Origin: Branchiostoma floridae
Taxonomy: Eukaryota > Chordata > Leptocardii > Amphioxiformes > Branchiostomatidae
Assembly: GCF_000003815.2 (NCBI RefSeq)
Contig: NC_049987.1
Span: forward strand, 19,428,024 to 19,492,023
DNA: 64,000 bases
Direction: 5' to 3'
This document shows, one piece after another, positions 22,261 through 63,590 of this stretch (within the stretch, counting starts at the first letter, position 1; every line of letters starts with the position of its first letter). The notes under the pieces were generated by a model that was not told the origin of the DNA, did not search any database, and was given only the letters and a program-made list of their open reading frames with translations. The translations under genes and the position numbers were made by a program.

Positions 22261-25200
22261 CTGAACAGAACAGCCAACATTCAGTCTTTACTTACTCAGG
22301 AGTTGTATACTGAATTTGCGTAATATCACTAATGAACATTACATCTGTTCACGGCACAATCCAGAAGAGATCTAAAACTTTGATTAAAAACAAATAGCAT
22401 AAGGATTATATAGGAAAATAATGATTAGTGCGCACTCCCTACAAATTGAAAAGGGCCAAAACTACAAGTCACCAGCCAACGAGAAACTGTGTCCAACATG
22501 CCTTAATCATTTTTAATGATAATGACTAATGAGAACGAATTCTACTTCATAATAGACTGTCCAACCTACGATAAAGACCAACAAAAATTGTTAAAATCTA
22601 TTTATTGTACATAAGTCTGATGCAATATTAATTACCATATACCAAGACAGAGATATTCAATTCGATATGTTCTAAAGAAGTGGCATGCATAACATTAACT
22701 GGTTTGTCTATACTGTTATCAAAAATTAGATTTAGATATTAGCAATACAAGAAGCTGAATGTTCATGAAATGTATGTGCAAGTTGCCATCTATTGTACCT
22801 GTTACAATTGTCACGTTCTATCTTATTCAGTCTATATATTACATGTACCTGTATCACTGGTGTTATTGCTGGGTCTAGCTGAAGCTGGTCGGTTGTTCCG
22901 TCTGCGCGCTGCCGCCCCCCTCAGTCCCGTCAGTCTCTGTTGTCGCCCGCTGTCCCGACCGCTACTGTGGCCGCCCTCCCTCGGGGATGACTGTTGGGTA
23001 GTCTGTCTGGGTCTCAACTGCATTCTATTGACTGGAGCTTGCTGGGTAGCTGTTGGACAATGACAAATTACTCAGTAAATGCAGAAATGTTTGCGGTTGT
23101 TTTATGTTCACAGTTTCTGCAGCAACCATTTCACCACAAACTCAAAACCACAGCAATTTTTGTCTTCTCCACAACCCCTTGTCTAACTCTAAGTGATGTA
23201 CCATATGATATACTATACATTGCACAGTACATGTACATTTCATTATAATGTTATAACTAACAAAGCACAAACTGAACACACAACTGTTACAGATCTTTGA
23301 ACATTGAATACAAAAAAGGTGCTTTCTGAAATTGTATAGAAAATAACAATACAAAATAATATAATAACAGTTATCTTCCCCTCAAAACACCATTCAATCT
23401 TAGTAGTCATCTTAAAGTTTGTAATTTTACATTTGCCAATTACCTGCATGCTGATTAGTTGCTGGTTGAGTGGCTATGTGCTGATTGGCTGCTGGTTGAG
23501 CAGGTGTGTGCTGATTGGCTGCTGGATGATTAGGTGCATGCTGATTGGCTGCTGAGTGATTGCCTGGTGATTGATTGGCAGCAGGCAGGTTGGTGGTCCT
23601 GAGTTGCAGCCTTCTGGCTTCTAGATCTTCTGGGGTTGTGTTCCGCCGGTCTCCCAGCATGCCTTGCTGTCTCAGGAGTAGAAAGTCCTCTTCAGGCAAC
23701 CCTCCGATGTACATGAGATATTCCGCCTCCCTGGGGGTAGGGAAACAACAAATGTTCAGATGTAAGCAGTGCTCAGGGACCAACTGGTGGCCTGTATCAC
23801 ACTCATATTCAACCAGGAAGCATCTTTGCGCTGTGGCAAGTACATGGTCAGTTCCACTTGACCACACCAGCCGGAAATTGAAATGACATCTGACTTCCAG
23901 CAAGGAAATACATGAATGTTTTTTTTTTTTTTTTTGTTAAAAAAAAGCACTTCAAAATTTATAACCGGACCTATGCCATGTCGCTGACATGGGGCTGAAA
24001 ATTTCTCAACGAGCTTGAAGGTACAAGCTATCAGACGGACATACTTGCTATATTTTGGCCGTAAATACTGTTACACTGGGGTCAATAATTCATTACCCTG
24101 GAGTAGTCTTACAGTTACACTGATTACGCTCGTTAAAAAACAAGAATAAAGAATGCTTCATGCAGACACAGTACACAGGGTTCTCCCCAGAATTTTTTTA
24201 GAATAGTGGAGGGGTTGGCAGAAATAACCCGAACCAACGCGCTGCACTTTCATGAAAATTGGTTCATTTTGCAATGACAGAAGGTGTCAAATACATGTAT
24301 TACAAGTATAATATGTTATAGTGATTCCTTTGTTGTGAAGCGGCAAAACGACTATTGTTTTGATCATTGCCCATTCACCAGTTTTTGCAGACAATGACGA
24401 CTGGAAAAGTGATGCCACTTGGCACAAAAATCTGTGAATTTTGATTAATTCAGGAAAACTAACCAAGAAAATAGGGAAGAAACACACTAAATTTCAAAAG
24501 AAGTATAGTGGAGCTGGGCTATGAGTATAGTGGAGGGCCTCTGTTATTCCATCCTCTGGGGAGGACTCTGGTACACTGTATCAGGTCTTACCTGCGTAGT
24601 TGTTCCAGCTCCTCCCTCCTATCCGTGTCCAGGGACTGCAGGTGTTCCTCCTGAGTCACCATCCGTCCATGGAGATCCCAATAAAACAAACAAACAAACA
24701 AACCTGCGTAGTTGTTCCAGCTCCTCCCTCCTGTCCGTGTCCAGGGACTGCAGGTGTTCCTCCTGAGTCACCATCCGTCCATGGAGATCCCAATAAAACA
24801 AACAAACAAACAAACAAACCTGCGTAGTTGTTCCAGCTCCTCCCTCCTGTCCGTGTCCAGGGACTGCAGGTGTTCCTCCTGAGTCACCATCCGTCCATGG
24901 AGATCCCAATAAAACAAACAAACAAACAAACAAACCTGCGTAGTTGTTCCAGCTCCTCCCTCCTGTCCGTGTCCAGGGACTGCAGGTGTTCCTCCTGAGT
25001 CACCATCCGTCCGTCAGACAGAGTCACCAGCTCCTGCCGCGAGCGTTCCCGCCACTGTTGGACGAACTCCAGGGGGTTGTCCCGCCCCTGGTGTCTCCTA
25101 CCACGACCTGACATACCGCCGCCAGATGATAGGTGGCGCTGTGGAGACAGAAAACAACAATAGTATCAAAATTGCTATTGAATGCTACAGCAGCAATTGT

Positions 25201-26400
25201 GTGTGTCAAACTAAATAAACTTCTTAAATACAAATAATTCCACATGCATGTTCAGTGCATCCACAACTAATTGCACTTAGGGGGAGGGGGATTGACGTAC
25301 TCAAAATCTAGGGAAGTCTGGTCATACTGGGGTATGTTCCCCCAGAACATAATTTTAATTTTCTAACTTACTGACAGTTGAAAAACACAAGTTTGTTGAC
25401 AAAAAATTGGACAGTGTTTTTTTTTTTCATAAAAGTTGAACTTACTAGTAGAATAGTGGAAAGCATCCAAGGTAGCGCAGCATTAAGCCAAACCTAACCT
25501 CTGCTNNNNNNNNNNNNNNNNNNNNNNNNNNNNNNNNNNNNNNNNNNNNNNNNNNNNNNNNNNNNNNNNNNNNNNNNNNNNNNNNNNNNNNNNNNNNNNN
25601 NNNNNTAATTGGTCCCGCTTATACCATTGGTATATACCATATTACCTCCACCAAGCAAATTTTACCTGCACCACTCTGAATTTAGAAAGTATGGATCATA
25701 CTAAAATTGTTCAGGAGCCATTGCTATTTTTTTTTTCTTTTATACTTTATAGGTGGTAACAGTCAATACAGCTAATAACAATCCATATACAGCTACATTA
25801 AAGGACATATAATAAGTATAAAACCCAGTACATGAACCAGTGCAGGTTAGGTGCAGGTAGACATCAGAAATACCTGCACAGCTCCAATTTTACCTGCACT
25901 AACCTGCATATGCAGGTGGTATTTCGAGCCCTGGTATCACAGTCTTACTCTTAGGCAATTGACAGCTGATCTAAAACAACTCAGAGCCTAATATAACCTC
26001 TGCTTGGAAGCCCCTGCTGCTGAAAGCTTCAATAACACAGGCAAATGCCAGCTATGGGCTATACCACACCTTCAAGATAGGGGTGTTGAGCTATGATTCT
26101 GCATTAAACCTAAAAAATCTGCAATGGTGCAAAAAATTGTGGGACTTCAAAACCCTGACATTCCAAAAAATCTTGAGCTATAGCTGCTGACACGCAAATC
26201 CAGACAAAAACAATACTCCTAATTTGGCGATCACTGATCTCCTTCACAGAGTAAATATAGAGAGAACTGAAGAAATTAAAGACAAAAAAATAAAATTACA
26301 ACATACCCGATTTTCCTCTGGCATTACGGCTATGTATGCATTTATCAGGCGTTGGCTCCGACAATGTCATCAATGTTCCAGATAATACAGTTAGTTCAGA
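21428..26400 (-). CDS. rlim: RLIM/RNF6-like RING-H2 E3 ubiquitin ligase (complete CDS)
   Basis: Coding exons 25114-24936, 23730-23444, 23049-22849 and 22260-21428 join in phases 2,1,1 to exactly 1500 nt, 499 aa. The N-terminal part has the family block with LEQLRR|EAEYLMYIGGLPEE and a following LL-RQQGMLG, as in RLIM/RNF6 leucine-zipper-like starts. The middle has Ala-Asn-Gln-His repeats and then a long Arg/Ser basic region. Residues about 335-390 are very acidic (DSDSSDFSDSWDEDYDSWED). The C-terminus has GLTKDEIAQLP followed by a C3H2C3 RING (C440 to C480, CTIC...CAHEFHSKC...CPVC). RLIM proteins are nuclear ligases that mark LIM-domain cofactors and other transcription regulators for destruction. 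RLIM and RNF6 are vertebrate duplicates, so one lancelet gene may be co-orthologous to both. A donor lies inside a tandem array (24589-25010). Confidence 0.85.
22849..23049 (-). CDS. rlim: RLIM-like gene exon: Arg/Gln-rich linker
   Basis: 201 nt, phase 1-1, acceptor GTCCAACAG, donor GATACAG|GTACAT. It encodes ATQQAPVNRMQLRPRQTTQQ and later RGAAARRRNNRPASARPSN, low-complexity and basic. Judged by position and phase rather than by domain. Confidence 0.75.
23072..23158. mobile_element. Fragment of MITE family A
   Basis: AAATGCAGAAATGTTTGCGG then TTGTTTTATGTTCAC...CACAAACTCAAAACCACAGC. A partial copy starting about 20 bp upstream of the acceptor at 23050, inside the intron. Confidence 0.6.
23444..23730 (-). 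CDS. rlim: RLIM-like gene exon: family N-terminal block and AANQ repeats
   Basis: 287 nt, acceptor TACCCCCAG, donor ATGCAG|GTAATT, phases 2 and 1. It encodes EAEYLMYIGGLPEEDFLLLR and QQGMLG, then six NQxxxxxPAANQH-type repeats that come from a tandem array of about 33 bp at DNA level (GATTGGCTGCTGG). Confidence 0.85.
24177..24569. mobile_element. Dispersed repeat D, copy 2 (inverted)
   Basis: About 393 bp, reverse complement of 18655-19033. AGGGTTCTCCCCAGAATTTT at one end, GGGGAGGACTCT at the other. Flanked by GTACAC on the right and a matching TACAC on the left, a possible short target duplication. Confidence 0.7.
24589..25010 (-). repeat. Fourfold tandem array containing an exon end and splice donor
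   Basis: Four copies at spacings 112, 116 and 116 bp. On the minus strand each holds GACGGATGGTGACTCAGGAG through GAACAACTACGCAG and then the intron start. In the three copies nearer the gene start the donor is GCAG|GTTTGTTTG (a GTTT microsatellite). In the last it is GCAG|GTAAGACC. Only the first copy is attached to the real upstream coding sequence. Reading through the array meets a stop, so splicing must leave at one of the donors. Confidence 0.9.
24936..25138 (-). CDS. rlim: RLIM-like gene first coding exon
   Basis: Acceptor TGTCTCCACAG, ATG at 25114. It encodes MSGRGRRHQGRDNPLEFVQQ onward to LDTDRREELEQLRR. The donor at 24935 is the weak GCAG|GTTTGT of the first array copy. Phase 2 fits the next exon, and the total length of 500 codons supports this end. 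Confidence 0.8.
25506..25605. other. Assembly gap (N)
   Basis: 100 consecutive N, a conventional unknown-size gap, in the 5' intron of the RLIM-like gene. Confidence 0.99.
25606..25935 (-). mobile_element. Dispersed repeat E, fullest copy
   Basis: On the minus strand it runs GGCTCGAAATACCACCTGCA, GTGCAGGTAAAATTGGAGCT ... CCTGAACAATTTTAGTATGA. Both halves recur on the plus strand at 33537-33740 and 35310-35445. Non-coding, and its other end is in the N gap. Confidence 0.7.
26307..26400 (-). other. rlim: Possible 5' UTR exon of the RLIM-like gene
   Basis: An acceptor directly before the first coding exon shows that an upstream exon exists. A donor ATCGG|GTATGT at 26306 on the minus strand is the best candidate. 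The 5' limit is unknown. Confidence 0.35.
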
Positions 26401-28540
26401 ATGACGTCATCTCCAGAAATCTTGCACGTAATACCAACCAACCATAAACCACCGTTGCACGGCATGACAACACACAACACAACTAACACAGCTTTAAAAT
26501 CAATACCTAATCAAATGCTCTATTGTACTTCTATTGTAGGTCTATTTATAGGGAGAGACAGATCAATTATATGTCAGTCCATGACGAAATGTTGGACTCA
26601 GACATTTGAATAATGCAATGAACTACTAGATGGTTCTATGGTTGCTAATCGCTGGGAAAATAGCACATGGAATCAATACAGATTTTGGAAAAATTATCCC
26701 AATATAACTTTTTTATAGTCCACCTATGCTGTTGTTAAACAAAGTGAATTCAGAAATGTATCAAATGAATAGAAATTATATAGGTCCTCATATGCATATT
26801 CAACACATTCTGATATACATTTAACACATGAAAACCTGATAGGAAAGTTGGTAGAGTGACCAAGCTGTTTAATTTTTTGGTGTAAATACTGAATCATTAG
26901 TGAACTAGAGTTCCTCGAACACATATCTTCGCCAAATAAACAATTTCTATGGAAGATAGTTCTTTTTGAATGATTAATGTGTATAAGTCCATATGTTATC
27001 TAGTCACATCATGTAGTGGTTGGTTGGATTATGAACATTGTGAGTAGATTAGTCTATTCTGTCGGTGTACATAATGCAGCAAATGTTTTGGCGATGTGAA
27101 TGAATGTCTTTGCATAATCAGAACAACTTGTACAGGTATGAGGTTACTGTTCTATTTTGTGTTGTCATAATTACTTTCGGAGAGCTGGTTATGTTTTGGG
27201 TAGCGTTTGTATGTATGTATGTATGTATGTATGTATGTATGTAGAAACCAGCAAATTGAAGACCGGCTGAATGGATTGAAGTGATATTTGGTATGTGGGT
27301 AGGTCTTGGAAACCTGGAAACCACAGGAAGTCACGCCGATAATTGCATTCGTCACTCACCAAACCCCGGCCACTGTAACAGTTGTTCCTTCCAATTTACG
27401 GAACTTTTTAACTCACCAAGGGTCATCTAAGGGCCATATGTAAGGATTGCTACGACCCCCGCCTTGGTGAACGTTTGTTTCAATCTCATGAAAATAGAAA
27501 GTAAAGTTTTGCAGTCGCGAGTTAAGTCAGAGGTATTTTACAGAGTCCAAGGTTATGATTTCTGCGACTGTCCGATGACAACCGCCTGTCACCTTTGGCG
27601 ATTTGTATTTCTCGCAATGATGTCAGTTCTTTCTAGCCGACCTTTCCCTTACAACATGACATCTCTGTTAAGAGTTGAGGAATGCGTGGATAATTGACGG
27701 TGACCCTTTTGACCTAAGTGCTGTTCTTCAACATGTTGGGTTTGTCTTGTCCCAGCACTTGGTCACTTGTTGTTTTAACCTAGTTCACAGATGTAAGTAC
27801 TATGTGTTACAAGCCGTCATTGTTCAATTATGTTATATTACTGACTTTACATAGTACTTATTCGTTTGTTTAGACCCATGTAGTGTTACTGGCACATGGA
27901 ACACCAAGTTTCCTTGCAGTCCATCATAAGAAAATACACCTGAAGTGTCTCGTAGATATTAGCTCTACATCTTTATATCAAGTGATATTCGTCAAGTTCC
28001 CTCTACTACATTTTTACCGTTCCCATGATATAGTGTTGCTTTTATTGTTGATCTGTATATAGATATAAGCAACACTTGTATATAGATATGTTATATTTCA
28101 ACTGCTATGAATCCTTTGCTGTGTGCCGTCGTATTGACATCAATTCAGCAAGCTATTTAATTGCTTAATTTTATAGATACGTGTTGGACACGGTCAGGCT
28201 TTGTATTTTGCTAACATGAACCATGACCATTTATAGGCATTTTTCAGCCAGTAGTCTCTACCAGACTCCATCCTGGCAGAATAGTACACGGATGACCTAG
28301 TAACATCCCTGGTCAATCAGAATTTCATGCTTCCAAGACAACGTCTGTTTATGAGGGAGCCCCTGCTTCCACTGGCTCCTTTGACCTACTTCTTCTCTAT
28401 TTTTAGACATCTATGGGTCGATTCAAGTCCTTTCAGGTGACTCTGTCACAAGTATTTTTCAACCGTTATAGAAGTTTCCCTAAGTAATTATATTAAATAC
28501 AGAGTGATTTATATAATTTGCATCTCATTATGTTGATAAT
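26401..28540. other. Intergenic stretch, mostly unique AT-rich sequence
   Basis: Apart from the GTAT microsatellite and its flanks at 27180-27350, I see no exon, RNA gene or named repeat. It is part of the divergent spacer between the RLIM-like gene and CEP126. Confidence 0.45.
27180..27350. repeat. (GTAT)n microsatellite with repeat-like flank
   Basis: About nine GTAT units at 27208-27242, followed by AGAAACCAGCAAATTGAAGA and GAATGGATTGAAGTGATATTTGGTATG. The phrase resembles the reverse complement of the old repeat at 28550-29215. Confidence 0.6.
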
Positions 28541-28549
28541 CATCCAAAG

Positions 28550-29215
28550 TACCTACCTACCAAAAACAAAAAATATCCATCAATCCCCTCAGGAGTTATC
28601 CATCTAAAAAGTTACGAAATATAACACCCACTGCAATTCCAAACAAGCTGCTAGGGGGCCCAAAATTAGACCATTGACTCCTAGTACCAACAGCTATCCA
28701 CCAGTAAAAAATCACGAACCTGGCACTTCTAGAAAATTTAGGCGAAAACTTTGATGCTCACTTGCAGTACCAAAACAATTTGCCAGGAGGCCCATTATCG
28801 AACTTGACCTTCCTTTCTGTGTCCCCTACCTATCAACCAAATATCATTAACATCCATCAAGAACATCTCGAGTTATCTTGCTTACAGACAAACGCACTTA
28901 CATACAAAGCCAGCTACAGCACCATAGGTAAAAGGTAGCTAAACCATTCTCGCACATGGCAATCCTTTCCACAGCCGCTACAGACCTGCCAAATATCGTG
29001 GAAATCGCCCAGCTACATTTTGACTTATGCCTCCCGAAAAAACACCCAAAAAAATACCAAGCTCGCTAATGTACCATAGGAAAACGCCAGGTAACCCATT
29101 TTCGAACTAGGCATGCCTTTAAACAACCGCTACACACCTGCAAAAAATAAAAAAGTTCCATCCACAATTTCTCGAGTTATATCCTGTTGACCTACATACA
29201 GACCCAAGTCGGCAA
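28550..29215. repeat. Old degenerate tandem repeat
   Basis: Three or four decayed units of roughly 150-190 bp. Each carries phrases like GCTAGGGGGCCCAAAATTAG, ACCTACCAAATATCAT, CATCCATCAAGAACATCTCG and AGTTATCTTGCTTACAGACA. The piece at 34365-34740 has the same phrases. Non-coding. Confidence 0.6.
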
Positions 29216-29639
29216 AAACATAAGCTTCTTGGCGAAGCTAATGATCTTTGTTTATACATGTATTGAAAATTGCAGAGGTGATTTGAAAACAGTTGTTGTA
29301 CTGAATGTACATGCCTTTGGTTCTGACGTAAAGTTGTTATTAATAATTCATAGACTACCATCGAGGACTATAGAAATTATTAGAATAAACATCATGGCAA
29401 AGCAGTTGTCAGCACATATCACATGAACTAGTTACTATTATATACTAATAACCGTTATACATGTAATTTAACGTGTTTTATTTTTATGTCAATCCCTACC
29501 TTTTCTGATTATAAGTAGTAAACAGTTGACAATTTTGCAGACTACTTTTCTGCACTTTGCACAATTTGTATTGCAAGGACATGGTCCTCATTAAGAAACT
29601 CTGAAATCTCCAGTTCTGTCTTCAACGCACAAACCTTAT

Positions 29640-29905
29640 GTGAGCAGGAATCACTATGTGATACAAACGAACCTTATGTGATTTGCATGAACCTTATGCA
29701 AAACTGGCCAACCACCTCCGGGTCATCAAGTGACATTACGTCATTCGCATAAGGTTCGTGCAAATCGCATGTTCGTGTGTGTGACAGACGGTTCGTAGGT
29801 TTTCGCATAGTGGTTCGTGTGATTTTCATAAGGTTCGTGTGTTTTCACATAGTGATTTGTGCGTATCACATAATGTTTGAATGAATCTCATGGGGTTCGT
29901 GCAAA
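29640..29905. repeat. Short-unit degenerate array around TTCGTGTG..CATAAGG
   Basis: About ten units of 20-22 bp. On the right they read GGTTCGTGTGATTTTCATAA, GGTTCGTGTGTTTTCACATA, GTGATTTGTGCGTATCACAT. On the left the same unit is inverted (CGAACCTTATGTGATTTGCA, TGAACCTTATGC). The inversion point is near 29710-29750. Confidence 0.75.
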
Positions 29906-30944
29906 TGCTTGGGCACCCCGCCGAAGGTACCACAAATGCTCAAGACAAGCGTAGACTTCCGTCAAAATATTCTGACACAACAAGAGAATTGTGGTGAAGA
30001 CAGCAGAGTGTCCCTTCAGGCAACAATCTTCATAAACATATTTCTAATATATCAAAACTACTGACGTTTAGTAAAATTATGTGATATCATTTATGATAAT
30101 TCTACCTCCGTATTGGTCAACGACTACAAAGTATATGATACTTAGATGATCTCATACTTTCAAACGAAGACGAAAAACTGTCAAACTGACGTAATTACTT
30201 TTTACAAACCGTTCATGTTGCACGTAACGTTATTTTTACGTTGCCAAAAAAAGCACGATGTTTTCATAACAATTTAGTTGATAACATACGACTTTTTCAG
30301 AGTTCCAAAGGTTATATAGGATAGAGGTACCAGACTGTGACACTCTTGCGTTGGCAGAGAGGCAATTTCGATCATATTTAAGGCGATTTTAAGACATTTA
30401 AGACTTTCTTTTACACATACCTTTCTCAGCAACTTTCACCTCTCTCTGCAATACAGGTTCAGGCAAAGATTGGGGCCTCGAGGTACATTGCTGTCTACTG
30501 TATTCATAATAACAGCCTGCAAAATATTTTCTATTTAATAGAACCTCCTTCGTTCATATTCACTGTATGAGAAACGAGACGGGTGGTGATATCTACTTCA
30601 CGCATCTTTTGATCAATTGATGACGTCACATGTGAATAGAAGTGACGTAAGCAGAGCGTAGGTCAGAAACCTCATTAAATATGTTTGCTAGTGAAAAAAA
30701 ATAACGTTGTGTGCAAATTTTGTAGTTGTAACACATTTTGAAAATTAATAGGAATTAAATGTCATTGTTTAAAAGGAGACTTTTATGACAATTTTCAAAG
30801 AATATGTCGATTTTGATCGTTATTGAGATTGAGGTTATCTTAGAGTCAATTTCAATAGTGAAAACAATGCAAGAGACGTCTAAGCTGCGTAATGAGGTGA
30901 TTTTATGCATACCTTTAGCGCAGTTGTCTTCGTTACAACCCAAA

Positions 30945-31090
30945 CTGTCAAGATGGCGGACAGAAGCAAAGATCGCTGATCTGTGCTGGAATTTCTACAT
31001 TTTACCACCATAAGAACTCACTTGAAGGGCACAGAAGGATGTATTCGGAAGAGGATTTTCCTATGAAGCGCACGGAATCTTCCAGCTGAC
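30945..31090 (+). promoter_or_regulatory. cep126: Candidate CEP126 promoter / first exon
   Basis: CAAGATGGCGGACAG at 30949 is a YY1-like motif of the kind found at transcription starts of housekeeping genes. The ATG in it stops after eight codons. It is at the right place for the missing 5' end of CEP126, but no splice join to 36605 could be shown. Confidence 0.25.
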
Positions 31091-34330: not shown

Positions 34331-34364
34331 TATATTAAGCATCACGTAACCTATCCACATATCA

Positions 34365-36149: not shown

Positions 36150-36598
36150 TTATATTGGTCTGTGGTTGGTTGTTACAATGTATAAGGCCTGTGGTTGGTT
36201 GTTATAAATTGATTAGTGTATAAGTTATAAGGTCAATGATTGGTTGTTATAAATCAATTAATAACTGTATAACATAATACCGAAGAAGAAGAAAGGTTCT
36301 GTGGTTAGTTGTTTAAAATTTAGTATATTAGGCCTGTGGTTGGCTGTTAGTTATAGAAGACCAGTGGTTGGTTGTCGATATCAGTTGCAAACAGTGTGGT
36401 TGGTTGTTACTGTATATATATTGTTGGCCTGTGGCTGGTTGTAAGTTTTTATTATAAATTAATTATAAATTACTGTATAAGTCCTGTGGTTGGTTGCAGG
36501 TTATAAATTGATTATTGTATATGGCCTGTGGTTGGTTGTAAGTTATAAATTAATCACTGTATAAGGCCTGTGGTTGGTTGTTACCCTTGACTACTTCC
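36150..36598 (+). repeat. Minisatellite upstream of a CEP126 exon
   Basis: About ten imperfect units of 35-45 bp, GGCCTGTGGTTGGTTGTAAG then TTATAAATTAATCACTGTAT. It ends at the acceptor of exon 36605-36719. The word GTAAGTTATAAAT inside several units is identical to the start of the intron after that exon. Confidence 0.85.
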
Positions 36599-36604
36599 AC
36601 AGAG

Positions 36605-36719
36605 ACAAGTACAAGTTGGTCCAACAGGACCAGGTCCAGCAGTTGAGAACCCACTCTGCTCGTAGGAAGGAACAGGACAGGGCCAAGACACTGAGGCAGG
36701 AAACTCTGCGCAGGAGGAA
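36605..36719 (+). CDS. cep126: CEP126 exon a: coiled coil
   Basis: Encodes DKYKLVQQDQVQQLRTHSAR and then RKEQDRAKTLRQETLRRRK, a charged helix. The acceptor could be CCACAG (start 36603) or CACAGAG (start 36605). Donor GAA|GTAAGT, phase 2. Confidence 0.8.
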
Positions 36720-39700
36720 GTAAGTTATAAATACTCTGAGGACACTCCATTTTAGTTTCTTTGTTATCGCCACTTCAATTTCTTTTTACTGATGTCCAAA
36801 ATTTAAAAAAGATTGTTGTCACAAATTTGTGTACCATTCACAATATGGTAACAACAATTTTGGCACCAACATTTGAAGAAAGTACAAAGTAATGTACTTG
36901 TACAGTCTTGTTTTTCCACTTATAATTATGGATTTAAATTTTGAAATCCATTGTTATAAAGTGTTATCCAGTCTGGAATGAAATTCCATCACTCCCACAA
37001 GTGGCATTCTTCCACATATGGCATTCTTCTTCATTATTGTCAGGCTTTAATATGTGACAATATTAATTTATGGCTGTATAACTAAATCCAACAATAATGT
37101 CACTATGTTTTGTTCATCTTTGAACCGTGCACCATTTTAGATGAGCAGGTGGCTCTCAATCTCAGTGTTGTAAGATTCTTAAGTCTACTCTCTAATGGTT
37201 GACATTTGCCAATTGAGAACAAGACCTTAGATCTAAATTATGCTCTAGATATTGTCCATATGGGGAGTCAGAGTATCATCATATATCCAGATGACGTCAA
37301 CCAATCAGAAGGCCCCATTTCATTTGGGTTATAGCGCCGTAACACATGTTACAAGTGAAGTGTTAGAAATATGTGGTCAATCTAGCACTGGAACCAATCA
37401 GAAGGAGGGTTCATAGAACATTGACCAATCAAAATACTAGTAACACCCAGCAGGGAGGAATGATCACACCCAACAGGGAGGAATGATCATGTATCTACCA
37501 CTGCTTACAGTTATAATCAATGTTTCCCTGTAATCTACTTAACAGTTCACACGACTTGTTTGACCTTCACAGGGCGTTAGAGGACAAGAAGAAGCATGAC
37601 GCGGAGAGAGAGGCCAAGCGTCGTGAACAGGAGCTCGCCAAGAGACGAGAACGTCAGCAGGAAGCCACGGAAAAATTTCAGAGGGCTCATGTCAGGCAAG
37701 GGTCTGCTAGAGGTACAGTCTGCTTCATGTATTACTGTACAACATCTCTTTGATCAGCAATCTAACTTTAACAGTAATAGTATACAATGTAACATCATTG
37801 TCTATAGACATGCAAGTTGTTTTTCACATTGTAGTGCCTAGTGATGGAAAGTTTCCTTTGCTGTTTCTGTAGCAGGGTATTTCTTTTCAAGGAGTAGTTG
37901 CTAGCTAGCTCTTCCCCTTTAACTTGCTCGAGGCACCTCTTCAAACATGCATGGGATACCCATTTTAGGGCCTTTTCAAAAACAGGCAAAAGCCCAACTG
38001 AGATGCTTTCCCAGGATTGAACTGTTGTCTCCTAGTTACCAACTACTGCAGTAATTGGAACCAGTTGAACTACAGGGACATCCCACATAGACATATGGTT
38101 GTTCCAATATCATGATACATCTACTGTCAGTCCTATAACTTTAAATGCTTTTGTGACAGGACAAACACAATTCTGGAGGTTAAGTTTCTGTAAACATACA
38201 TGTACTCTGATACATTACTAAGTCAGTAAGTGACATCATTCTTGCTGTTCCAGGGAGGAAATCCCGCACCCCAACACTAGACGAGGTGTTACGACAGGTC
38301 CGAGGGACGTCAAGAGCGTCCACAACATCTGGCGTCACTAACACCTCAGCACGAACCATCTTTTCAAGGTAATTGTCATGGTTCAGTTCAGTATGCCAAT
38401 CTAAATAGTCCGAGTTGATTTCAACAATTGATTGGGTATCATCATCATCATCATCGGTCGGCTGCAGTGCAGGCGACTAAGTTTCTTCCATGCTCCTATG
38501 TCGGCAGCTAGATGGCATATCTGCTTTGCCGTCATTAAAGTCTCCTAGGAGCTGTTGAATGTACTTTAGATAGGAGGTAGCTTGGCATACATATTGTGTA
38601 CACTAGGCGTAAGAGATGTGTATCACCAAACATGATCAATCATGAGGTAAAGGGTACAGAAATCAGTTACAGGGGTTTAGGTACAGATCCAACAATTTGC
38701 GAAAATGCAGAATGTTTTCCCCGTAGCCTTTTCTCAAGTTACTTTCACAGGTACACAATACTATATGCTTACTTAAGTAGTGAAATCATGCATATCCTGC
38801 GGTAAAGACTGATTTTACTACATATTTAAACATCCTGGATGACTTATCTGCACAAATGTATCAATTTTCAGATACTGTGCCTGTGCACATATCCTAAATG
38901 ACATCCATATGCAATCCCTCAGCCCAAGAGCCTCCAATTTACTATAGAAAAAAATTTCTTTGATGTATTGTCATAATCCTTAAAAACCTATCTCCTTTTG
39001 TGGTGATTTTTTGTCATTGAATGTACTAAGACATTGTGTTTGATTGACAGGAAATACGGAGGTAGCAATCCGGACCTTTCCACTGAGACTGGGGGTGGCG
39101 CAGGCCTGCAGTACGGGAAGCTGACGGCAGAAATGCGTACCACCAGTGAACGCAACCTTGCCAGCAGCAAGAAAATGTTCGAACAGCAACTGGAGGAGCA
39201 AAATCGACTTCTTGCTGAGCAACAACAAAGGACCATACAGGTTGATTTGCATACTTTTTTTGTATTGTAAATGTCTTTTTCTCAGCATCATCATCGTCTT
39301 TTTCTAATTTCTTTTAAAAAAGTGTAAACTATGTCCAATCATCATACATCAGCTTTTATTTAAAAGCCAGTATCTTTGGAGACAAATGCTATTTATCTGC
39401 AATTATGAAATCATTGTATCCTTGATGTCATTGTTAAAGGAAAGCTAAACTCAAAGGGGGTGTTTTGTTCCAATAGATGATAATTATAGGATTTCAACAC
39501 CAAGGACAGGTACATGTACCTTATCAAATGGATGGTAAAAGAAGCCCTGAAGTCAGGAAGGGTTATTTTCTGAGAGATATTAATTTTGGAAAGTAGCAAA
39601 TGCATACTACTTCTCAAAATACAATGTACAATACCCACTAGTCCCGCCTGCACCAAAAAGGAATCAGTATTGTACTAAACTCACCAAATGCCCTCTAATT

Positions 39701-42700: not shown

Positions 42701-45700
42701 AGGTTTTCTTTACTTGGTTTTACTCTCAATATTTAGATGGTCAAGGTACATGCTGTCAGCTGGAAGGTAAAGAAAATGTTTTAAGTTTTGTGTGATCGTT
42801 ATTTGTTCCAGGATCCTGCTGTGACAGGAAGCCGGCAGACAGCTCAGATGTCCCAGCTGACCCTGGACGGGGGGAGGTTAGCAGGCTCGGAGGTGGTCCC
42901 CAGGCTCAGAACCATGCCCAGGGTGGGGGGGTTCTCATCTGCAGCACCCACAGGTAAGGGGAGTGGGGGGTATGGTGGGGTGGACTTGTGGACAACCATT
43001 GTTGATTGGACTTAGGACCTACATTATTTTATGTTGCGCACCCATAATGTCTTCTGTGCTCCTAAATTTTTAGTTTGAAAGAAGCTGAGTGCACTAGCCT
43101 GGGTATCATCTGGATATATAGGTGTTTGCTCTGACGATTATTATACACTACATGTATTATACAGTCGCTTCTTTGCTATTCTAACTTGGAACTCAACTTC
43201 ATGTCCAAATCTTTGACGAGGGCGCTAATTTGTCCCATCAGGGTAGTAGTTTACTCCTATGTTTGCTTCTACTACCCAAGAAACTGAAATGGTTATTAAT
43301 AACTGATTGCTGTATTTCATCAGGTGTTGGAACACCTGTTCGAATGAGCGTTCTAGAACCCTTGATTCCCTCATAACTGATGTCATCACCCAAAGATTTT
43401 GATATATGTAGTTCCCCGTGCAGATGCATGCCATTGGGTAGCAGAAGCAAACATAGGAGCAAACTACTTCCTGAATGGTAGCCAGGCTAGCGCACCTTTT
43501 CCAAAAAATTGATTTCGAGCTTTGACGTTTATGGTGAGTGAAGAGGTACTTTTCAGTTGTACTGAATGCCATGATGTTCATCAGCAGGAGGAAGGAGAAG
43601 AACAGCCAGTGAGAACAACAGCGCCTCCTTGCGTCGTAATGCCCTACTGCAGCAGAGGAACCAGCAAAGAGCCAACACCTTACAGAAGACCCCCACCCCC
43701 TCACAGCAGCAAGTCCGGTTTACGGAAATCTCACAGGTATGTAGAGCAGACAGGGATGTCCCTGTGGCTCAACTGATATCGGCCTCACAGAAACAGTAAC
43801 AGTTATTACAGTCCACTATTCTCCCTCCAGACTGCTATAGGTCCTACTGACAGTAACTACAGTGTACTGTTCTGTTCCCAGACTACTAAAGGGCCCATCC
43901 CTAGTGCCCAGGAGCCAGGGAACAGGACAGCAGGTCCTACTGACAGTAACTACAGTGTACTGTTCTGTTCCCAGACTACTACAGGTCCTATACCCAGTGC
44001 CCAGGGAACAGGACAGCACAGCAGGTCCTACTGACAGTAACTATACAGTGTACTGTTCTGCCTCTGGACTACTACAGGCCCCATTCCCAGTGCCCCGGGT
44101 ATCAAGTCCTACTGACAGTAACTTCAGTGTACAGACGTCTGTTCCCAGACTACTACAGGCTCCATCCCCAGTCCCAGAGCCAGGGAACAGGACAGCAGGT
44201 CGTACTGACAGTAAACTACAGTGTGCTGTTCTCCCTCTAGACTACTACAGGTCCTACTGACAGTAACTACAGTGTACTGTTCTGTTCCAAGACTACTACA
44301 GGTCCCATCCCCAGTGGCCAGGAGCCAGGGAACATGACATCAGGTCCTATTGGCAGTAACTAAATTGTACTGTTCTGTTCCCAGACTACTACAGGTCCCA
44401 TGCCCAGGAGCTAGGGAACAGGACAGCCATTCCTACTGATAATAACTACAGTTACTGTATATTGTTCTGTTTCTACTGACTACTACAGCCAGTACAGGTC
44501 CTACTGACAGTAACTTACAGAGTACTGTTCTGTTCCCAGACTACTACAGGTCCCATCCCCAGTGCCCAGGAGCCAGGGAACAGGACAGCGGGCCCTACTG
44601 ACAGTGAGGTGACCGAGAGTCTGGCCGCTTTCCTGGAGGCTGAGTACATGTCTGACCAGCCCATCTCTGAAGCTGAGATCGCTGCTGCACTAGACGCCAT
44701 GCAAAACAGACAGACTGGACAGAAGGGTGGGTATACAGCTGCTGTTGCTGGAATCAAGCGGCATTTTTATAGCAAGTAAAATTGTAAGCCTTAAGAAAAA
44801 AGCTTGCCATGCAACCGTTAGATAACTGTGAGGATGAAATGGTGGTAGAAGTTACACTTACATTATGTAGGGCCACGAAATATGCATTGAGTTTCGGGAA
44901 ATGTCCACATATAATCTCGCAGCACATTTTGCAATATTCTGCAGGACATTTGGAAATTTTTTGTAGTGCGTTCTGCGATATCCCATAGGGTGTTCTGCAA
45001 GAGTTAGGAGGTTTCTTCTGAGTTTTGCAAATTTCAGTTCTGCAGCAAAAATCAAACATGTACAATGATTCACTTCTGGGATTTATGCAGATACATGTAA
45101 CTTTTCATTCACTCTAAAACACTAAGTCTTACAGGATGTGAACTAACCTTACATAATTTATGTGGTTTGTGTTTACAGCACCAAGTGCACTGTCCATGGA
45201 GGAACGAAGACTTCTGCAGTCTTTGGACAGACTCAACCAGAGGTTAAAAGGTAAGTTTCTCTTTTGAGAGGTTACGTCACTGTACCGTAACACTTAAAGC
45301 CATACACAGGGAATAGTTGACAAAAAAAAGCACAGGATGGGAGATTATTGTTGCATGAACAATGCAATATCAATACAAAGCAACATACATGTATTAGATT
45401 AGAGCAATGATGGCATGATAATTATTCTAACTGTATTCACTGATTTCTACCATGATGATAGTTATACATGCAGGAAGAGTTTGAAAACAGATGATTATAA
45501 TAAAAATGTCCTTGTTTTATACAAATTTAATGTTCAAACTTGAACGTGACTGTATATTCTAAATCACATTATTTCATTCTAGTTACAGAAACTGTCACTC
45601 AGAATGCTGCAACCAACATGACACAAAAACCCCCACTCCATGTAAGATATTCTTCCTTTTTCATTGTTACATGACTTGTACAACAATGATATTATACCTT

Positions 45701-50397: not shown

Positions 50398-50400
50398 TTA

Positions 50401-52046: not shown

Positions 52047-52275
52047 GCAGGCAGGTAGGTAGGTAATGAAAACCTAATATGCATACAAAACTGTAGATTG
52101 AATCAAACCTAATTTTACATTGTACATTTCAGAACAGTTACAGTTGTACATAAGCCGATTATGTCCACATTGGCAGTTTTTCCTCCAGTCTTTCAAACCT
52201 GGTCAAAAATTTTGGTATTCAAATAAAATTCAGATAAAACATTAACCGTGAAAAACGAAACTTACAGCAATATAA

Positions 52276-57147: not shown

Positions 57148-57179
57148 CTAATAGAAAAATAAAACAAAATTAGCTATCT

Positions 57180-58200
57180 ACATTCCAAATATCCTGAAGA
57201 TCCATCAACCCATTTCCAAGTTATTCCCCTCGAAAGGGATGATGCAACTACGCAGGTGTGGAAAATTCCTGACATGCCTGCGGAATTTTGAGAATTCTTG
57301 TCATACGGACACACACTATGCTATTAGGCTAGACTCTGAGGTTTCGCAAAAAAATCATGGCTCTTAGCATGGGCAATAGGCCTCGGAATTGTGTTTTTTG
57401 TTGAGTAACAGGAACCCCGCCGCGCGCTGTCTGCCACGGTAGTCCGCCGTGTACCGCCAATCCGGAAATGCCTTCTCAGATGCTCCCGTCAAAGATTACT
57501 ATCTTCTTAGTGCGAGTATTTCCCGTCATCCTTTGCGCCGCCTTTCCCCTAACTTTAAATGTTGGATGGGTAAGCAACCGATCTCCCTGATGTGCGTTAC
57601 CACTTCCGGTGTTTTCGATCATCTGTGTTGTGGTGTGGGATCGTACGGCGGGCCCGTTAAGGCGCCTTGTCGGTTTTCGTGGTACTATTTGAGAAGTTTG
57701 AGGGTTTCAACACGCTGACAAAAGCTACGCTGCACTGCAGATACGTTTTGACCGTGTTTTTTCCACTGCTTTTGTCTGATTTTCGTGATCGGTAACGTGG
57801 CAAACCCGAAAGTAAGAACTGAGATAGGAATACCAACTTCCTTAGGAATACAGATCTCGTGAAACAGATGGCATTTTAGCGATTATTTAAGTATGGACCG
57901 TTCTACAAGAATAATGCATCAATGATTATAACGATTACATGTGGTTAGTGCCAGCGTTTTGGTAAATATACTAGCTACCGATGCGTTTTTTTACGACGAC
58001 GTGGTGTGGCCGCCGCCGTACTGCTGGTAACGCAGTGACCCGGAAATCGGCTAAAATTCAATGGCGTTTATTTTAATTTGAAATGACTAATATGTGCTCT
58101 TTGTACGTTAAATGGCCTCCAAATAACTCGACGAACATAATTCACTTGAAAGTTTTGACTTAGATATTAGAATTTTGCAGAAAACGGCGATAGTAGAAAA
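57180..58200. other. 5' flank of the MFSD4B-like gene
   Basis: It includes a GC-richer part (57415-57720) that may hold the MFSD4B promoter or 5' UTR exon. No splice donor could be chosen with confidence. No other exon seen. Confidence 0.4.
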
Positions 58201-58209
58201 GGCCTTTCC

Positions 58210-58610
58210 CACCTAGCTCGCTTCGCTCGCTCTAAATCGGCTACGCCGATTGGTCGGCTTAGCCGACCTTCGGGTGGAAAAACTCCTGCGCCGATTGGTC
58301 GGCTTCGCCGACTTCCCCGACCTTCGGGTAATCCCCAACCCCGGCAATGCTCAGCGATACGGTGTACGGGCGAATGAAAGACAATTCCTTGGCCTACTGC
58401 TCGCTTCGCTCGCCGCGACGCTTCGCCGCGCTCTAAATCGGCTACGCCGATTGGTCGACTTAGCCGACCTTCGGGTGGAAAAACTCCTGCGCCGATTGGT
58501 CGGCTTCGCCGACTTCCCCGACCTTCGGGTAATCCCCAATCCCGGCAATGCTCAGCGATACGGTGTACGGGCGAATGAAAGACAATTCCTTGGCCTACTG
58601 CCTATGCTCT
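58210..58610. repeat. GC-rich hairpin tandem duplication (period 201 bp)
   Basis: A 170-bp unit at 58231-58400 is repeated at 58432-58601 with only about two changes. Each unit holds short perfect hairpins: AATCGGCTACGCCGATT, GGTCGGCTTAGCCGACC and GTCGGCTTCGCCGAC. Between and before the units are further ones (GCTCGCTTCGCTCGC, GCGGCGAAGCGTCGCGGCG on the other strand). It differs sharply in composition from its surroundings. Confidence 0.9.
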
Positions 58611-58689
58611 TAGTGGCAAATGTGCAGATGTTGGCACTCTGGTACACCAAATCCGTAGGTGTTTTTTGGCACCCTTTTTGACAGATTAG

Positions 58690-58812
58690 CTGTGTGGGTG
58701 TCACTCCACCGTCATGGGGGGTTAATTGTGTTAAGTGCCCTTCCCAAGTATGGAACTCGGGACTTACTGATTTTGACTCAAACGCTCTAGCCGTTGCACC
58801 AGACCCCAAACT
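58690..58812 (-). mobile_element. Decayed SINE, minus strand
   Basis: On the minus strand GGTGCAACGGCTAGAGCG (A-box-like) then AAGTCCCGAGTTCCATAC, followed by CTTGGGAAGGGCACTTAACA. The layout resembles the SINEs at 31605 and 46060. Confidence 0.55.
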
Positions 58813-59206
58813 CTAATATAAGGTACACAGCAAGAACTCAGTCAATGTCAAAGTGACTTATAATAACATATTTTCTTGGTTGGAAAACATAATTTTTTTT
58901 CTGTTGGGGGCTTGTCAGTATATACTACTAGTACGTGTCTGCCTGTCCATGTGTTTGTGTGTCTGTTTCCAATATGTCTGTCTGTGTTTCTGTCTGTATG
59001 TTTCTGAACATGTGTCTGAGTGAATTTGTGCACCTAAAATTAGAGCTAATTCTTGACTGTGGGTGCACTAGTGTACTTGGTGCACCTACATTATATGATA
59101 TTAGATTTACTAATAGAGGGGTTGTACATACATAAAAGGTGTGCTATTGTAATAACAAAAATAACTGGTAAACGTGCACGTGCACCTTATTTTTTTTTCT
59201 GAGAAC

Positions 59207-59801
59207 GGTCTGCCTAAACACCACAAATGACCACAAACGACTCAGAAACACCACAAACGACCACAATTAACTCTAATATGAAGTGTATATGGGTCAAAGA
59301 CCTTGTGTGGCGCTCTGGAGACAAATGTTTACACATTTATGAATTTAAAAAATGCAGCAAGTCCTACGTATTCACCAGTTATTTCGAGTTAGTCAGCCGG
59401 TTTCAAGATCGGTCTCGATGGCTGAGCGTGCTGTTCATGAATGTGTGCTTGCATTTGAGGCAGAAAAACTTAGTATACAAGTTTTATAAGTTGAAAATGA
59501 TAGAGTTGTGTCATGCTATAATCTATGAACCAACAGCGTCCATAGTTTTATCGTCCTGTCGTCTATGGAACCGTGGAAGGTATAGAGGCCTTCCCCATGC
59601 AGACTCCTAGCACAGGCGATCCAACATGGTGGCAAAGAATCGCTTCTATCTTGTAACCGGCGGACTAACTCGAAAAAACTGGTGAATACGTAGGACTTGC
59701 TGCATTTTTTTAATTCACAAATGTGTAAACAATGTCTCCAGAGCACCACACAAGGTCTTTGACCCATATACACTGCATATTAGAGTCGTTTAGGCACACA
59801 C
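59207..59801. mobile_element. Long-TIR foldback element with 10-bp target duplication (MULE-like)
   Basis: 595 bp. The arms (about 59207-59411 and 59645-59801) are inverted copies: CCTTGTGTGGCGCTCTGGAG against the reverse of CTCCAGAGCACCACACAAGG. They include AAATGCAGCAAGTCCTACGT and ATTCACCAGT. TTCTGAGAAC lies directly outside both ends (59197-59206, 59802-59811). Arms of 150-200 bp and a 9-11-bp duplication fit Mutator-like elements. No transposase. Confidence 0.82.
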
Positions 59802-60034
59802 TTCTGAGAACCTTAATCTTTAGGACAGGTGGACCAGTGCATGTATTCCCAAAAATGAATTTTAACTTAAGCTACATTGTATGCAACTTTTATCATAGCA
59901 TACGTTAGTGCTTATAAGACTAAGAGGCCACAATACATACACTGTACCATCAACTTCAAAAATAAGGCTCCTAGCTACGTTAAAGCTTGAAAGAGAATTT
60001 AACACGTAATACTATGTTTTGTTTATGACTTCAC

Positions 60035-60072
60035 CCAAGGACGTTATATAACGTCCTTGGTCTAGATCTAGA
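60035..60072. repeat. Two adjacent perfect palindromes
   Basis: CCAAGGACGTTAT followed by its exact reverse complement (26 bp, 60035-60060), then directly TCTAGATCTAGA (12 bp, 60061-60072). Confidence 0.95.
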
Positions 60073-61199
60073 TATCAGACATATAAAACAGAGGGAAATT
60101 GGCAAAAAAATTGTGTGAGAAACCAAATCATACCTGGTAACAAAGCTATCTCACGAACGGGTTAAATATCTATACGTCTATGAACAAACCAAACAGTAAT
60201 AGTTTAAATGTGCCATTTCTGAACTTTGTCCTCCACTTAAGTCTACAGTCTGTCCCTCCTTGACAAATATTCGTGAACGGTCGCCCATTCCGTCAGGTCC
60301 GATCGCTGAATAAAGGAATTACAAGAGCTACTCAAACACTGGACCAAAATTTATACTTGAAACTTCCGAGTCCCGACGCAACAATTGTGATAAAGTTGAA
60401 AGACCAGATACAGATCCGCACATGACGCCCCCCTCCCCCTTCAACGTTCATGTTGGCCTAAACAGATTGTCAGCAGTTATTACTTACCAGAAGTACGATG
60501 CCAGCAGGAAAACGTCCTATGTGTGGCCTATACGTGTGTCCAGTAGTTTGACAAATATACGTGTAGCACTGTGTGACCTGTGCAACACAAAAGCACGTTT
60601 TGTACTTGTAGCACCAGGAAGTGCCGAACTCTCCACCGAGGTATTGTGTGCGCGTCGCCGTTATGGGGAGACGATACCATTAGAATTTCCCCCCAGTAAT
60701 ACATGCGTTCCAATGGGAGAGTTGAGGAAACAAATATGCAATTATCTCAAGAATAAAAAGTTCAAGCCATACAAACTTATCTTCAAATGATAGCCTACTG
60801 TGTCCAGTCTCAGCAAATTCCTTGGCAAGAATTTCTATACGGCTAATCTTATGATACACCCCCCTAATTAGAGCTCTTGGATTGGCCCATTTGGCTGAAA
60901 ACAGCATTCTGGCGACGATACCACTATTTCAGGGGGGTGCGAGCGCGGAAACCCCCTCGATGGAGAAAGGTAATTTTTTACAACTAATTCTACCAGTGTA
61001 GGGTCTTTCCTACTGCAGCCACTCCCAAAATGCCCAGATTTCACATAATACCATATGATATTAAATACCTCTTTCCCGCGCTAGCACACTCTGGGTCATA
61101 GGTCAAATGATTAGTACCCCGAATGTCCTAGTTCGTAAACCAATGGAGGCTTTAGTAAAAATAGACCAATGAACAGCTAGAATAAAGATATTTTGTCCA

Positions 61200-61296
61200 A
61201 TCGTAAGCCAGTAAATCGGAGCGTGTTGGATTACATTACCAAGATGGCGGCGACGGGTGGCGTTCTTGGATACCGGACACAACATTGATTTTTTAG
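61200..61296 (+). promoter_or_regulatory. ccdc83: CCDC83 promoter / first (non-coding) exon
   Basis: ACCAAGATGGCGGCGACGGG at 61238 is a YY1-type start-site motif. Its ATG frame stops after 14 codons. A donor TTTAG|GTAAAA lies at 61297. The next exon has the acceptor TTTCCTCAG at 61798 and the real ATG. Confidence 0.5.
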
Positions 61297-63278
61297 GTAA
61301 AATTTGGCCATTTTCGTCTTATATGTAGGTGACATAAACCAAGGAAATGGTAGATAACTTTGTAAGGGTAAGCCTGTTTGTAACTGTCTGGGAAAGGAGG
61401 CCCAATTGATCGTGTTGTTTGGACAGACAGGATCAAAACAGAGTTGTGCAACCGGGGCCGGGTTGCTGACTACCATTAAGATTATATATAAGAATCATAG
61501 TTTTGAACAACGACGTTACGTCTTCACGCAGACTGAATTCTCCATACAAACTGAAATAGAGCTAAACCCACGAATGTCAGTGTTTTGTGTAGCGCATTTG
61601 TGTACGATCATTGCGTTTTATAATTTCTTTTTATCACAACAGGTATATGCGACTATGGGCACACTAGACTCTTGTGTGTTAAAGATTTCCATATCTTAAT
61701 TTTAAGACATCAAAATTATGACAAGAGTTTGATATAGATTTATGATATATATAATAACGTAAGTTAGCATATTACAAAGACTGCCATTTTTTCCTCAGTA
61801 AACGCCCAACGCTCGCCTGGTTCCTGAGAAACTGAAGACCAGAGATGGGGAAGAAAAAGAAGGGAGGAGGAAAGAAGGGGAAGAAAGGGAAGAAGAAGTC
61901 TGGAAAGGGAGGAGGGGAGGAGTCCATGTCCCTTCGAGAGGCCATCCTGGCTTTCCAGTAAGGATCTCATGTCTTCACGTTGTTGCCATTAATGAATGCA
62001 TATGAAGTACATTTTACTATGGATTGTCCTTTGTATGATAGCGATAGGAGCATTTGATTTGACTATGTGTTAAGTAAATATCCCCACTTTAGACACTTGA
62101 ACAGTAAAGAGAAATTTGTATTCCTGACACTTTTGATAAACCAACTCTAACCAACCATACAGCTAGCTACATTTACAATTACCAAGAAGCGAGAGGAAGT
62201 CGAATGTCCTAGAATAGATTAGACGCACATCAGATCTGCATATATAGATGTGTATGATTGTTTCCATTGTTACATATATGTGATTCTTACCGTGTGACCT
62301 GTACTTAGCCCAGTGGGGCAAAAATGTGCAATAAAGGTCTTCATTCATTATTATGTATATATAATCTGTATCTGTACTAGTATCTATATAGCCGGTATAA
62401 GATAACCGCCCTTTGGCATATAACACACCAGCTTCCAGGCACGCGGCATGGCAGCAGCTGGTTATCTCAAACTGAGAGACTTGTCACACCTAGCCTTTGC
62501 ACATCTGACTGCAAATGTTGTTGAGAGTCGCATATTTGTTTGTCTGTGACAGTGTGTGTGTTTGTGTGACACTAAGTAATATTTTTGTCACACATAAGAT
62601 TGTTGTTAAAATCACAATTTAATGATTAGTGATAACTATGATTTCTTACCACGGATATAAATATTTGCTTTCCTATCACAGGATTGAAGTGAAAAACAAG
62701 GCAGTGGAAGAGTTTGTTGCGGAAATCAACGGTCTGGAGGACAAGAACAGAAGGCACAAAGAAAGGGTAAGTGCCAAAAGTTTATTACTTAAATCTAGAA
62801 ATAACATACTTTTTGCTTTTTGATAATCATTTCTTCCTCCTAGATCCTTAAGTTGGAATCACCAAGCTGCTGCTAGTGTAATCTTATTTAATAAAAGTAA
62901 AACTTACTTGAGTCGTTGAGACAAGTTTTATCATATCAATTTGAAGAATTGTAACAAACAAGAGTCTTATGTATTCCTGCTATTTCATTATAGATGTATT
63001 ACAGGGGAATTTTGGAAAAGGAAAAGCTGTTCATGCTGGATAGCACTCGTAAAATCAAAGAAACAAACGTGACTCTGTAATGCTAACATACAGAACTCTT
63101 CTTTCCCAGAATAACCGACTTAAAGATGAGCAGGCCCTGCACATCCGGACGCTCCTTAAGCAGGCTAAGGAGCGAGACAAGGAGCTTGAGCAGGAGACGG
63201 TGGTGGGGCGGGAGAAGGTGGACTCCACCATGAAGGACAAGTGGAAGGCTATTAGGAACGAGGACAGATCTGTGGAGG
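61200..63278 (+). CDS. ccdc83: CCDC83 (coiled-coil domain protein 83), 5' part
   Basis: Coding exons 61845-61957, 62682-62766 and 63110-63278 join in phases 2 and 0 and leave in phase 1. They give 122 aa before the window ends. A Lys/Gly-rich start (MGKKKKGGGKKGKKGKKKSG) is followed by SLREAILAFQIEVKNKAVEE, EINGLEDKNRRHKERNNRLK, DEQALHIRTLLKQAKERD and VDSTMKDKWKAIRNEDRS. This is the colinear CCDC83 pattern: LxYQxxIKxxAVExF, KNxxxxERNxRLKxEQxxHIRxLLK, MKxKWK. The biochemical role is not known, and vertebrate CCDC83 is mainly a testis coiled-coil protein. The remaining exons lie to the right. Confidence 0.85.
61799..61957 (+). CDS. ccdc83: CCDC83 exon with start codon
   Basis: Acceptor TTTCCTCAG, ATG at 61845 (AGAGATGGGG). 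113 coding nt. Donor CCA|GTAAGG, phase 2, splitting a Gln codon. The basic polylysine start is unlike the acidic vertebrate N-terminus but the following helix aligns. Confidence 0.85.
62682..62766 (+). CDS. ccdc83: CCDC83 exon 3
   Basis: 85 nt, acceptor TATCACAG, donor AAAGG|GTAAGT. It encodes IEVKNKAVEEFVAEINGLED then KNRRHKER. Coiled coil. Confidence 0.9.
63110..63278 (+). CDS. ccdc83: CCDC83 exon 4
   Basis: 169 nt, acceptor TTTCCCAG, donor GGAG|GTAAGG shifted by one (GAGG|GTAAGG), phase 1. It encodes NNRLKDEQALHIRTLLKQAK then ERDKELEQETVVGREKVDST. Its last bases and donor are repeated downstream. Confidence 0.88.
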
Positions 63279-63590
63279 GTAAGGATAACACACGTGTGTT
63301 ACTTAGTGAAGAATTACATGTATAACAGATCTGTGGAGGGTAAGGATAACACACGTGTTGTTACTTAGTGAAGAATTACATGTATAACAGATCTGTGGAG
63401 GGTAGCAATGTGTAGTTACTTACACAGAGTATTATAACAAATCAAAAAGGCACCAAATTCAACTAAAAATTCTTGAGTAGTAACAAAAGATACATTTCAA
63501 AGGGTGTTACATAAAAATGACTATTAGGAACGAGGATAGATCTGTCGAGGGTAAGGATAACATACGTGTTGTTACTAATAGTAAAGTATT
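63262..63590 (+). repeat. Tandem copies of the CCDC83 exon 4 end and donor
   Basis: ACAGATCTGTGGAGGGTAAG with the following TACTTAGTGAAGAATTACAT unit occurs at 63264, 63325 and 63386 (period about 61). A further diverged copy at 63520-63590 contains more of the exon (CTATTAGGAACGAGGATAGA, TCTGTCGAGGGTAAGG). Confidence 0.9.

Follow-up and report, generated by a model that had tools for sequence, protein, structure and literature searches.

Probable new mirages in three lancelet genes, and no detectable enrichment of minisatellites at splice junctions in a small sample

Introduction

Why should minisatellites lie across exon-intron boundaries in three genes of a single stretch of lancelet DNA? 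The window, by which we mean the whole 64-kb stretch that was analysed (G000:C9:19428024-19492023, from an assembly of 513 Mb in 431 contigs), carries such arrays in an RLIM-like gene, in CEP126, and in a CCDC83-like gene. The original prediction held that these cases were more than random placement would give, that they might provide splice-site redundancy, and that they might be an undescribed feature of this genome. The last of these suggestions does not hold: such arrays have been published as lancelet "mirages" (PMC3087553, PMC3902484). The window arrays are very probably mirages, which makes the RLIM-like, CEP126, and CCDC83-like genes new members of the group.

Mirages are reported from the lancelet Adh3, globin, troponin C, and PGBD5 genes (PMC3087553, PMC3902484). 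Those described in the globin genes BflGb6 and BflGb9 have units of 10-72 and 150-160 bp, with the 150-160 bp units of BflGb6 placed at the start of exon 2 (PMC3087553), while PGBD5 is described as having 60- and 108-bp repeats across splice sites, in an account that also cites Adh and troponin C (PMC3902484). Both donor-side and acceptor-side examples appear in these accounts, where RT-PCR is said to suggest that splicing is undisturbed (PMC3087553, PMC3902484). We found no genome-wide minisatellite survey of lancelets in the open-access library that was searched.

Boundary arrays in the window

The copy numbers first proposed for the three boundaries were confirmed, and the features concerned are collected in Table 1. 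The names RLIM-like and CCDC83 are labels taken over from the original prediction. An open reading frame of the RLIM-like gene (21431-22291) matches Pfam zf-RING_2 (E = 2.1e-15), and the spliced 11-exon CEP126 protein matches Pfam K1377 (PF15352, E = 4.2e-22), a family that we take to be CEP126. Pfam gave no support for the CCDC83 name.

At the RLIM-like donor, TRF finds the array and a direct count gives four copies of the donor, in units of 116, 116, and 112 bp. The first intron base of the copies lies at 24935, 24819, and 24703 (all CAG/GTTTGT, the slash marking the splice boundary) and at 24591 (CAG/GTAAGA). What is repeated is an exon end of 79 nt (77 exonic nt plus GT), whose four copies alternate with three fillers; read along the gene, exon end and filler occur three times, followed by the last exon end and then the intron. 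Besides the filler listed in Table 1, two further ATGGAGATCCCAATAAAA(CAAA)n fillers of 37 nt each start at 24781 and 24897. The CEP126 acceptor is present in ten copies with a unit of about 93 bp by TRF, and AG is kept in eight of them. Four donor copies were likewise confirmed in the CCDC83-like gene, three reading GTAAGG and one GTAGCA, with the fourth copy (63551) set apart from the array.

Two other arrays of the window may be recorded here. A 79-bp array of 3.8 copies follows the fourth CCDC83-like donor (63596-63891), and its units contain a GTGAGT- or GTAAGT-like motif; a 201-bp array of 1.9 copies, 97% identical, lies outside the three genes (58219-58601).

A second case had been proposed in CEP126 (36150-36735), in the form of a minisatellite sharing sequence with the donor of its own exon. 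The sharing itself stands, as the 13-mer GTAAGTTATAAAT occurs twice in the 64-kb window, once in the donor (36720) and once in a single unit of the array (36538). The placement does not: by TRF and the gene model, the 42-bp minisatellite takes in no exon boundary, and its intronic position together with the single 13-mer in the array rules it out as a boundary array.

Table 1. Coordinates of the arrays, exons, and repeat units discussed in the text (window positions unless a contig is given)
Feature	Position	Strand	Evidence or description
RLIM-like terminal exon with RING-H2 domain	21428..22260	-	gene model; Pfam
RLIM-like coding 30-bp array, second coding exon, ending at its donor (exon end 23444)	23439..23579	-	TRF, gene model
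RLIM-like donor array	24590..25012	-	TRF period 116, 98% matches; four CTACGCAG/GT copies
Filler ATGGAGATCCCAATAAAA(CAAA)n, first copy, 33 nt	24669..24701	+	direct string count
RLIM-like exon with start codon (ATG at 25114)	24936..25138	-	gene model
Intronic 42-bp minisatellite upstream of CEP126 exon 36603-36719	36468..36581	+	TRF; about 36150-36585 by eye
CEP126 acceptor array, intron end plus exon start, 10 copies	43831..44605	+	limits hand-drawn; TRF rows 43839-44398
CEP126 exon	44540..44726	+	gene model; frame test
CCDC83-like exon	63110..63278	+	gene model
CCDC83-like donor array, 62-bp units, donors 63279, 63340, 63402	63264..63404	+	TRF; direct count
CCT gene acceptor array	C4:26683404		one full decoy TTTTAG/GGACCT
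Myosin donor array	near C12:7389601		58 bp x 2
Myosin donor array	C10:21155674 (L088 C10:21155620-21155787)		90 bp x 1.9
Myosin acceptor array	C10:21157408 (L088 C10:21156331-21157430)		50 bp x 22

Placement of arrays relative to splice junctions

Within the window, the three gene spans hold 33 modelled junctions and 7 arrays. When TRF intervals are used, 3 of the 7 arrays span a junction, compared with 2.71 expected under random placement at a margin of 0 (P = 0.57) and 2.59 at a margin of 5 (P = 0.52); at a margin of 10 the count is 2 of 7 against 2.47 (P = 0.81). The three are the RLIM-like donor array, the coding array ending at the donor of exon end 23444, and the CCDC83-like array, while CEP126 is absent from this count because its TRF rows end at 44398 and do not reach 44540. 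Hand-drawn limits, which bring CEP126 in, give 4, 4, and 3 of 7 against 3.18, 3.09, and 3.02 (P = 0.39, 0.36, and 0.67). The window counts thus match random placement (P = 0.36 to 0.81) and lend nothing to the original claim of an excess.

A sample drawn from elsewhere in the genome consisted of chaperonin (PF00118) and myosin-head (PF00063) exons picked blind to repeats, and comprised 22 stretches, 102,086 bases, 141 called junctions, and 19 arrays of period 10 or more. For PF00118, 44 of 60 matches were used; 11 lay outside the stretches taken, and 5 were dropped because they fell in three presumed intronless genes, called so from long open matches, at one of which there are two arrays. For PF00063, 43 of 142 matches were used, and nine globin loci were set aside to serve as positive control. 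A small score matrix applied near the ends of Pfam matches supplied the junction calls, of which those scoring above 3 were kept (the 141 counted here).

Four of the 19 sampled arrays span a junction, against expectations of 3.61, 3.42, and 3.33 at margins of 0, 3, and 5 (P = 0.50, 0.47, and 0.43), and at a margin of 10 there are 3 against 3.14 (P = 0.66). Over four TRF settings the ratio of observed to expected stays between 1.03 and 1.35, with Poisson 95% ranges lying within 0.28-3.45. Array coverage (TRF score 50, period 10 or more) is 2.7% in intron at 150-300 nt from the junction, 3.8% at 50-150 nt, 3.6% at 5-50 nt, 2.8% at the junction itself, 1.7% within the exon at 5-40 nt from its edge, and 0.6% in the interior of exons, so that the 102-kb sample has no peak of coverage at junctions relative to flanking intron. 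Junction enrichment therefore finds no support in these 102 kb. Arrays hit junctions about as often as their density in the genes would predict. The small size of the sample, in which two of the four boundary arrays belong to one gene, and the matrix-based junction calls leave room for moderate enrichment, of about threefold. Random placement also admits array-poor exon interiors, so a modest excess at junctions may be present and offset by selection.

Slippage or repair could make transcribed exon-intron junctions hot spots where arrays arise, in which case enrichment would be expected. This idea can point to seven boundary arrays, three in the window and four in the sample, and to several published genes, but random placement accounts for the counts, and arrays cover junctions no more densely than the intron next to them. 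We consider this explanation unlikely.

That boundary arrays recur was nonetheless correctly foreseen, as further cases occur elsewhere in the genome, namely the four sampled arrays and one globin locus. The globin exon search that served as positive control returned 9 matches in the assembly, and a boundary array was found at one of these 9 loci (L048), where a 158-bp array of 4.2 copies (954-1601) runs over position 1501, at which the exon match begins. This array is consistent with the published BflGb6 array, and its gene is a candidate for BflGb6. Boundary arrays are commoner in the three window genes, with 3 per 33 junctions (hand-drawn limits, leaving the 23444 coding array uncounted), than in the sample, with 4 per 141, though the window was picked for its boundary arrays.

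Reading frame across the copies

In each of the three window arrays, an uninterrupted spliced open reading frame is obtained only with the exon-proximal copy. The sole frame-keeping donor of the RLIM-like gene is the exon-proximal CAG/GTTTGT at 24935, which leads to an uninterrupted RING-protein frame, and the other three, CAG/GTAAGA at 24591 included, reach a TGA. On a donor matrix built from 15 window donors (which themselves score 5.4-12.2), the frame-keeping donor scores 7.0 and the frame-breaking distal GTAAGA 10.2. At CEP126, the acceptor at 44540 is the only AG copy from which the exon can be read without a stop in the frame set by the exon before it (frame 0), the seven other AG copies meeting stops. 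At the CCDC83-like gene, the first donor (63279) alone keeps the frame open, and the three decoys do not.

The four sampled boundary arrays lie in three genes and bring the total to seven. None of three decoys keeps the frame in the CCT gene. The single decoy of the myosin donor on C12, 58 nt off, shifts the frame without a stop, and the single decoy of the myosin donor on C10, 90 nt on, is in frame and would add 30 residues. The units of the C10 acceptor array contain the acceptor and the opening codons of the P-loop exon (GESGAGKTE) and extend through 1.1 kb of intron; all 20 decoys tested there keep AG and none keeps the frame. Taken over the window and the sample, 1 of 38 extra splice-site copies keeps the frame and the other 37 would break it.

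Boundary duplications could also represent intron birth in progress, since they supply both an AG and a GT for a new intron. Such a model has been proposed for lancelet globins, BflGb13 among them (PMC3087553), and reported for a potato gene (PMC4974935). The arrays seen here do offer paired splice signals, but the open reading frames modelled in the window need no extra intron, and we regard intron birth as an improbable account of them.

The frame results bear on functional redundancy, the notion that the extra sites serve as backups or yield regulated isoforms. In its favor, AG or GT is kept in 4 of 4, 8 of 10, and 4 of 4 copies of the window arrays, the decoy of one sampled myosin array could lengthen the protein by 30 in-frame residues, and in human paralogs tandem repeats at exon boundaries are reported to give rise to new introns (PMC2812944). 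Yet the proposal made for this locus is contradicted at the level of the reading frame in all three window arrays, and since 37 of the 38 extra copies overall would break the frame, redundancy at the protein level is very unlikely.

Least credible of all is an assembly artefact in which collapsed or mis-joined haplotypes give false tandem copies. In its favor, the draft BflGb6 array was noted as a seemingly aberrant assembly (PMC3087553) and the PGBD5 copy number is said to differ between two sequence versions (PMC3902484), but the window units differ from one another by substitutions and indels and the PGBD5 sequence is reported as confirmed by new data (PMC3902484).

Origin of the RLIM-like unit

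The filler of the RLIM-like array has relatives throughout the assembly. The string ATGGAGATCCCAATAAAA(CAAA)n terminates longer dispersed repeats at at least 40 other places in the genome, and a longer tail query gave at least 40 matches, its own place counted. The sequence shared upstream of the tail ranges from 22 nt to more than 1.5 kb, as it would in a 5'-truncated retroelement. We call the family retroelement-like on the grounds of these truncated copies and of the AATAAA(CAAA)n end; around one copy (L039), no open reading frame of at least 150 aa occurs within 8 kb.

In the RLIM-like array, the insert ends in the 3' tail of this family and is flanked on both sides by the duplicated 79-nt exon end. 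The presence of n exon ends and n-1 tails, with a native-looking GTAAGA after the last, suggests as the simplest course a single event of tail insertion and exon-end duplication, followed by amplification. It is possible, and we put it forward tentatively, that retrotransposition, or a repair process that captured a retroelement end, provided the seed of some mirages. At the RLIM-like gene, a severely truncated tail, inserted at the splice donor, and a 79-nt duplication would then have been amplified to four ends and three tails, the (TTTG)n tract would now make up the intron side of the one donor that keeps the frame, and the presumed original GTAAGA donor would have become a decoy 344 nt downstream. 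A tail-capturing repair event would leave the same look at this locus. In the sampled myosin donor array on C10, the unit has a (TTTG)n-rich run right after GT, like the RLIM-like array, and lacks the ATGGAGATCCC part.

The possibility that the tail family generally duplicates its target site was considered and rejected. An adjoining repeat of at least 8 nt, sought as an exact match of the first 8 nt no more than 4 nt from the end of the tail, was found at 0 of 31 other distinct tail-family copies, a count in which each place appears once, L018 and L023 are left out because their tails are unreadable, and L015 and L028 (at a flank edge) and L033 (running into N) could be judged only incompletely. 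Seven copies (L012, L022, L025, L028, L031, L034, and L035) have matches of 8-34 nt farther upstream, none of which adjoins the end of the element by homology limits.

One copy of the family (L007, 1080-1760) interrupts, precisely where two units meet, an older minisatellite whose units measure about 190 bp. An 81-nt repeat flanking the element there was discarded as a target duplication, being part of the pre-existing array, in which the intact junction between the first two units is visible as the empty site, without target duplication. This empty site makes seeding by retroelement tails somewhat less likely.

Discussion

Mirages are very probably ordinary minisatellites within genes, with units that by chance extend across an exon edge and a placement about as expected. 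Under this explanation, a small local duplication would take in both sides of a splice junction, and unequal exchange or slippage, the putative means of amplification, would multiply the duplicated unit on the intron side. The copy adjoining the rest of the exon would stay the working splice site, as only that copy preserves the reading frame, and the remaining copies would become intronic decoys, tolerated if splicing ignores them. That the exon-proximal copies are the ones used in RNA is a prediction from the genomic sequence. Several observations run against this account: the frame-breaking decoy of the RLIM-like gene outscores the candidate for the used copy, the decoy of the C10 myosin donor keeps the frame, and boundary arrays are commoner in the window genes than in the sample.

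With these results, three genes of the window, together with the four boundary arrays that the sample yielded in three genes, join a known peculiarity of lancelets, and the 4 boundary arrays at 141 called junctions, in a sample taken blind to repeats, provide a first rough rate of their occurrence. Should the lack of enrichment hold genome-wide, no special mechanism at junctions would be needed, just a minisatellite-rich genome and splicing that passes over numerous near-perfect decoys. The real question would then be how the spliceosome chooses among some twenty near-identical copies, a question that the C10 myosin acceptor array makes testable.

Among known systems, the target-site duplication of non-LTR retrotransposons resembles the RLIM-like array in that the 79-nt copies directly flank an insert like a 3' tail, and differs in that 79 nt is long. 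Intron gain by tandem duplication likewise involves a duplication across an intron-exon boundary, whereas the reading-frame models made here need no new intron. Genes of human segmental duplications are reported to have minisatellite units over exon-intron boundaries as well, but transcripts there back novel introns (PMC2812944), while in the lancelet genes the exon-proximal site alone keeps the frame.

The closest counterparts are the amphioxus mirages themselves. The genes differ (RLIM-like, CEP126, and CCDC83-like in the window, one CCT and two myosin genes in the sample), and the retroelement-like tail inside the RLIM-like unit goes unmentioned in the available portions of the published mirage accounts. 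The traits of mirages include length polymorphism, somatic instability, and regular mRNA splicing, while the window arrays are known from one assembly. In their architecture the two agree: tandem units lie over an exon-intron boundary on the donor or the acceptor side, as they do in all three window arrays; the units of 62, about 93, and 116 bp fall within the 10-160 bp given in the published descriptions; and AG or GT is kept in many of the copies.
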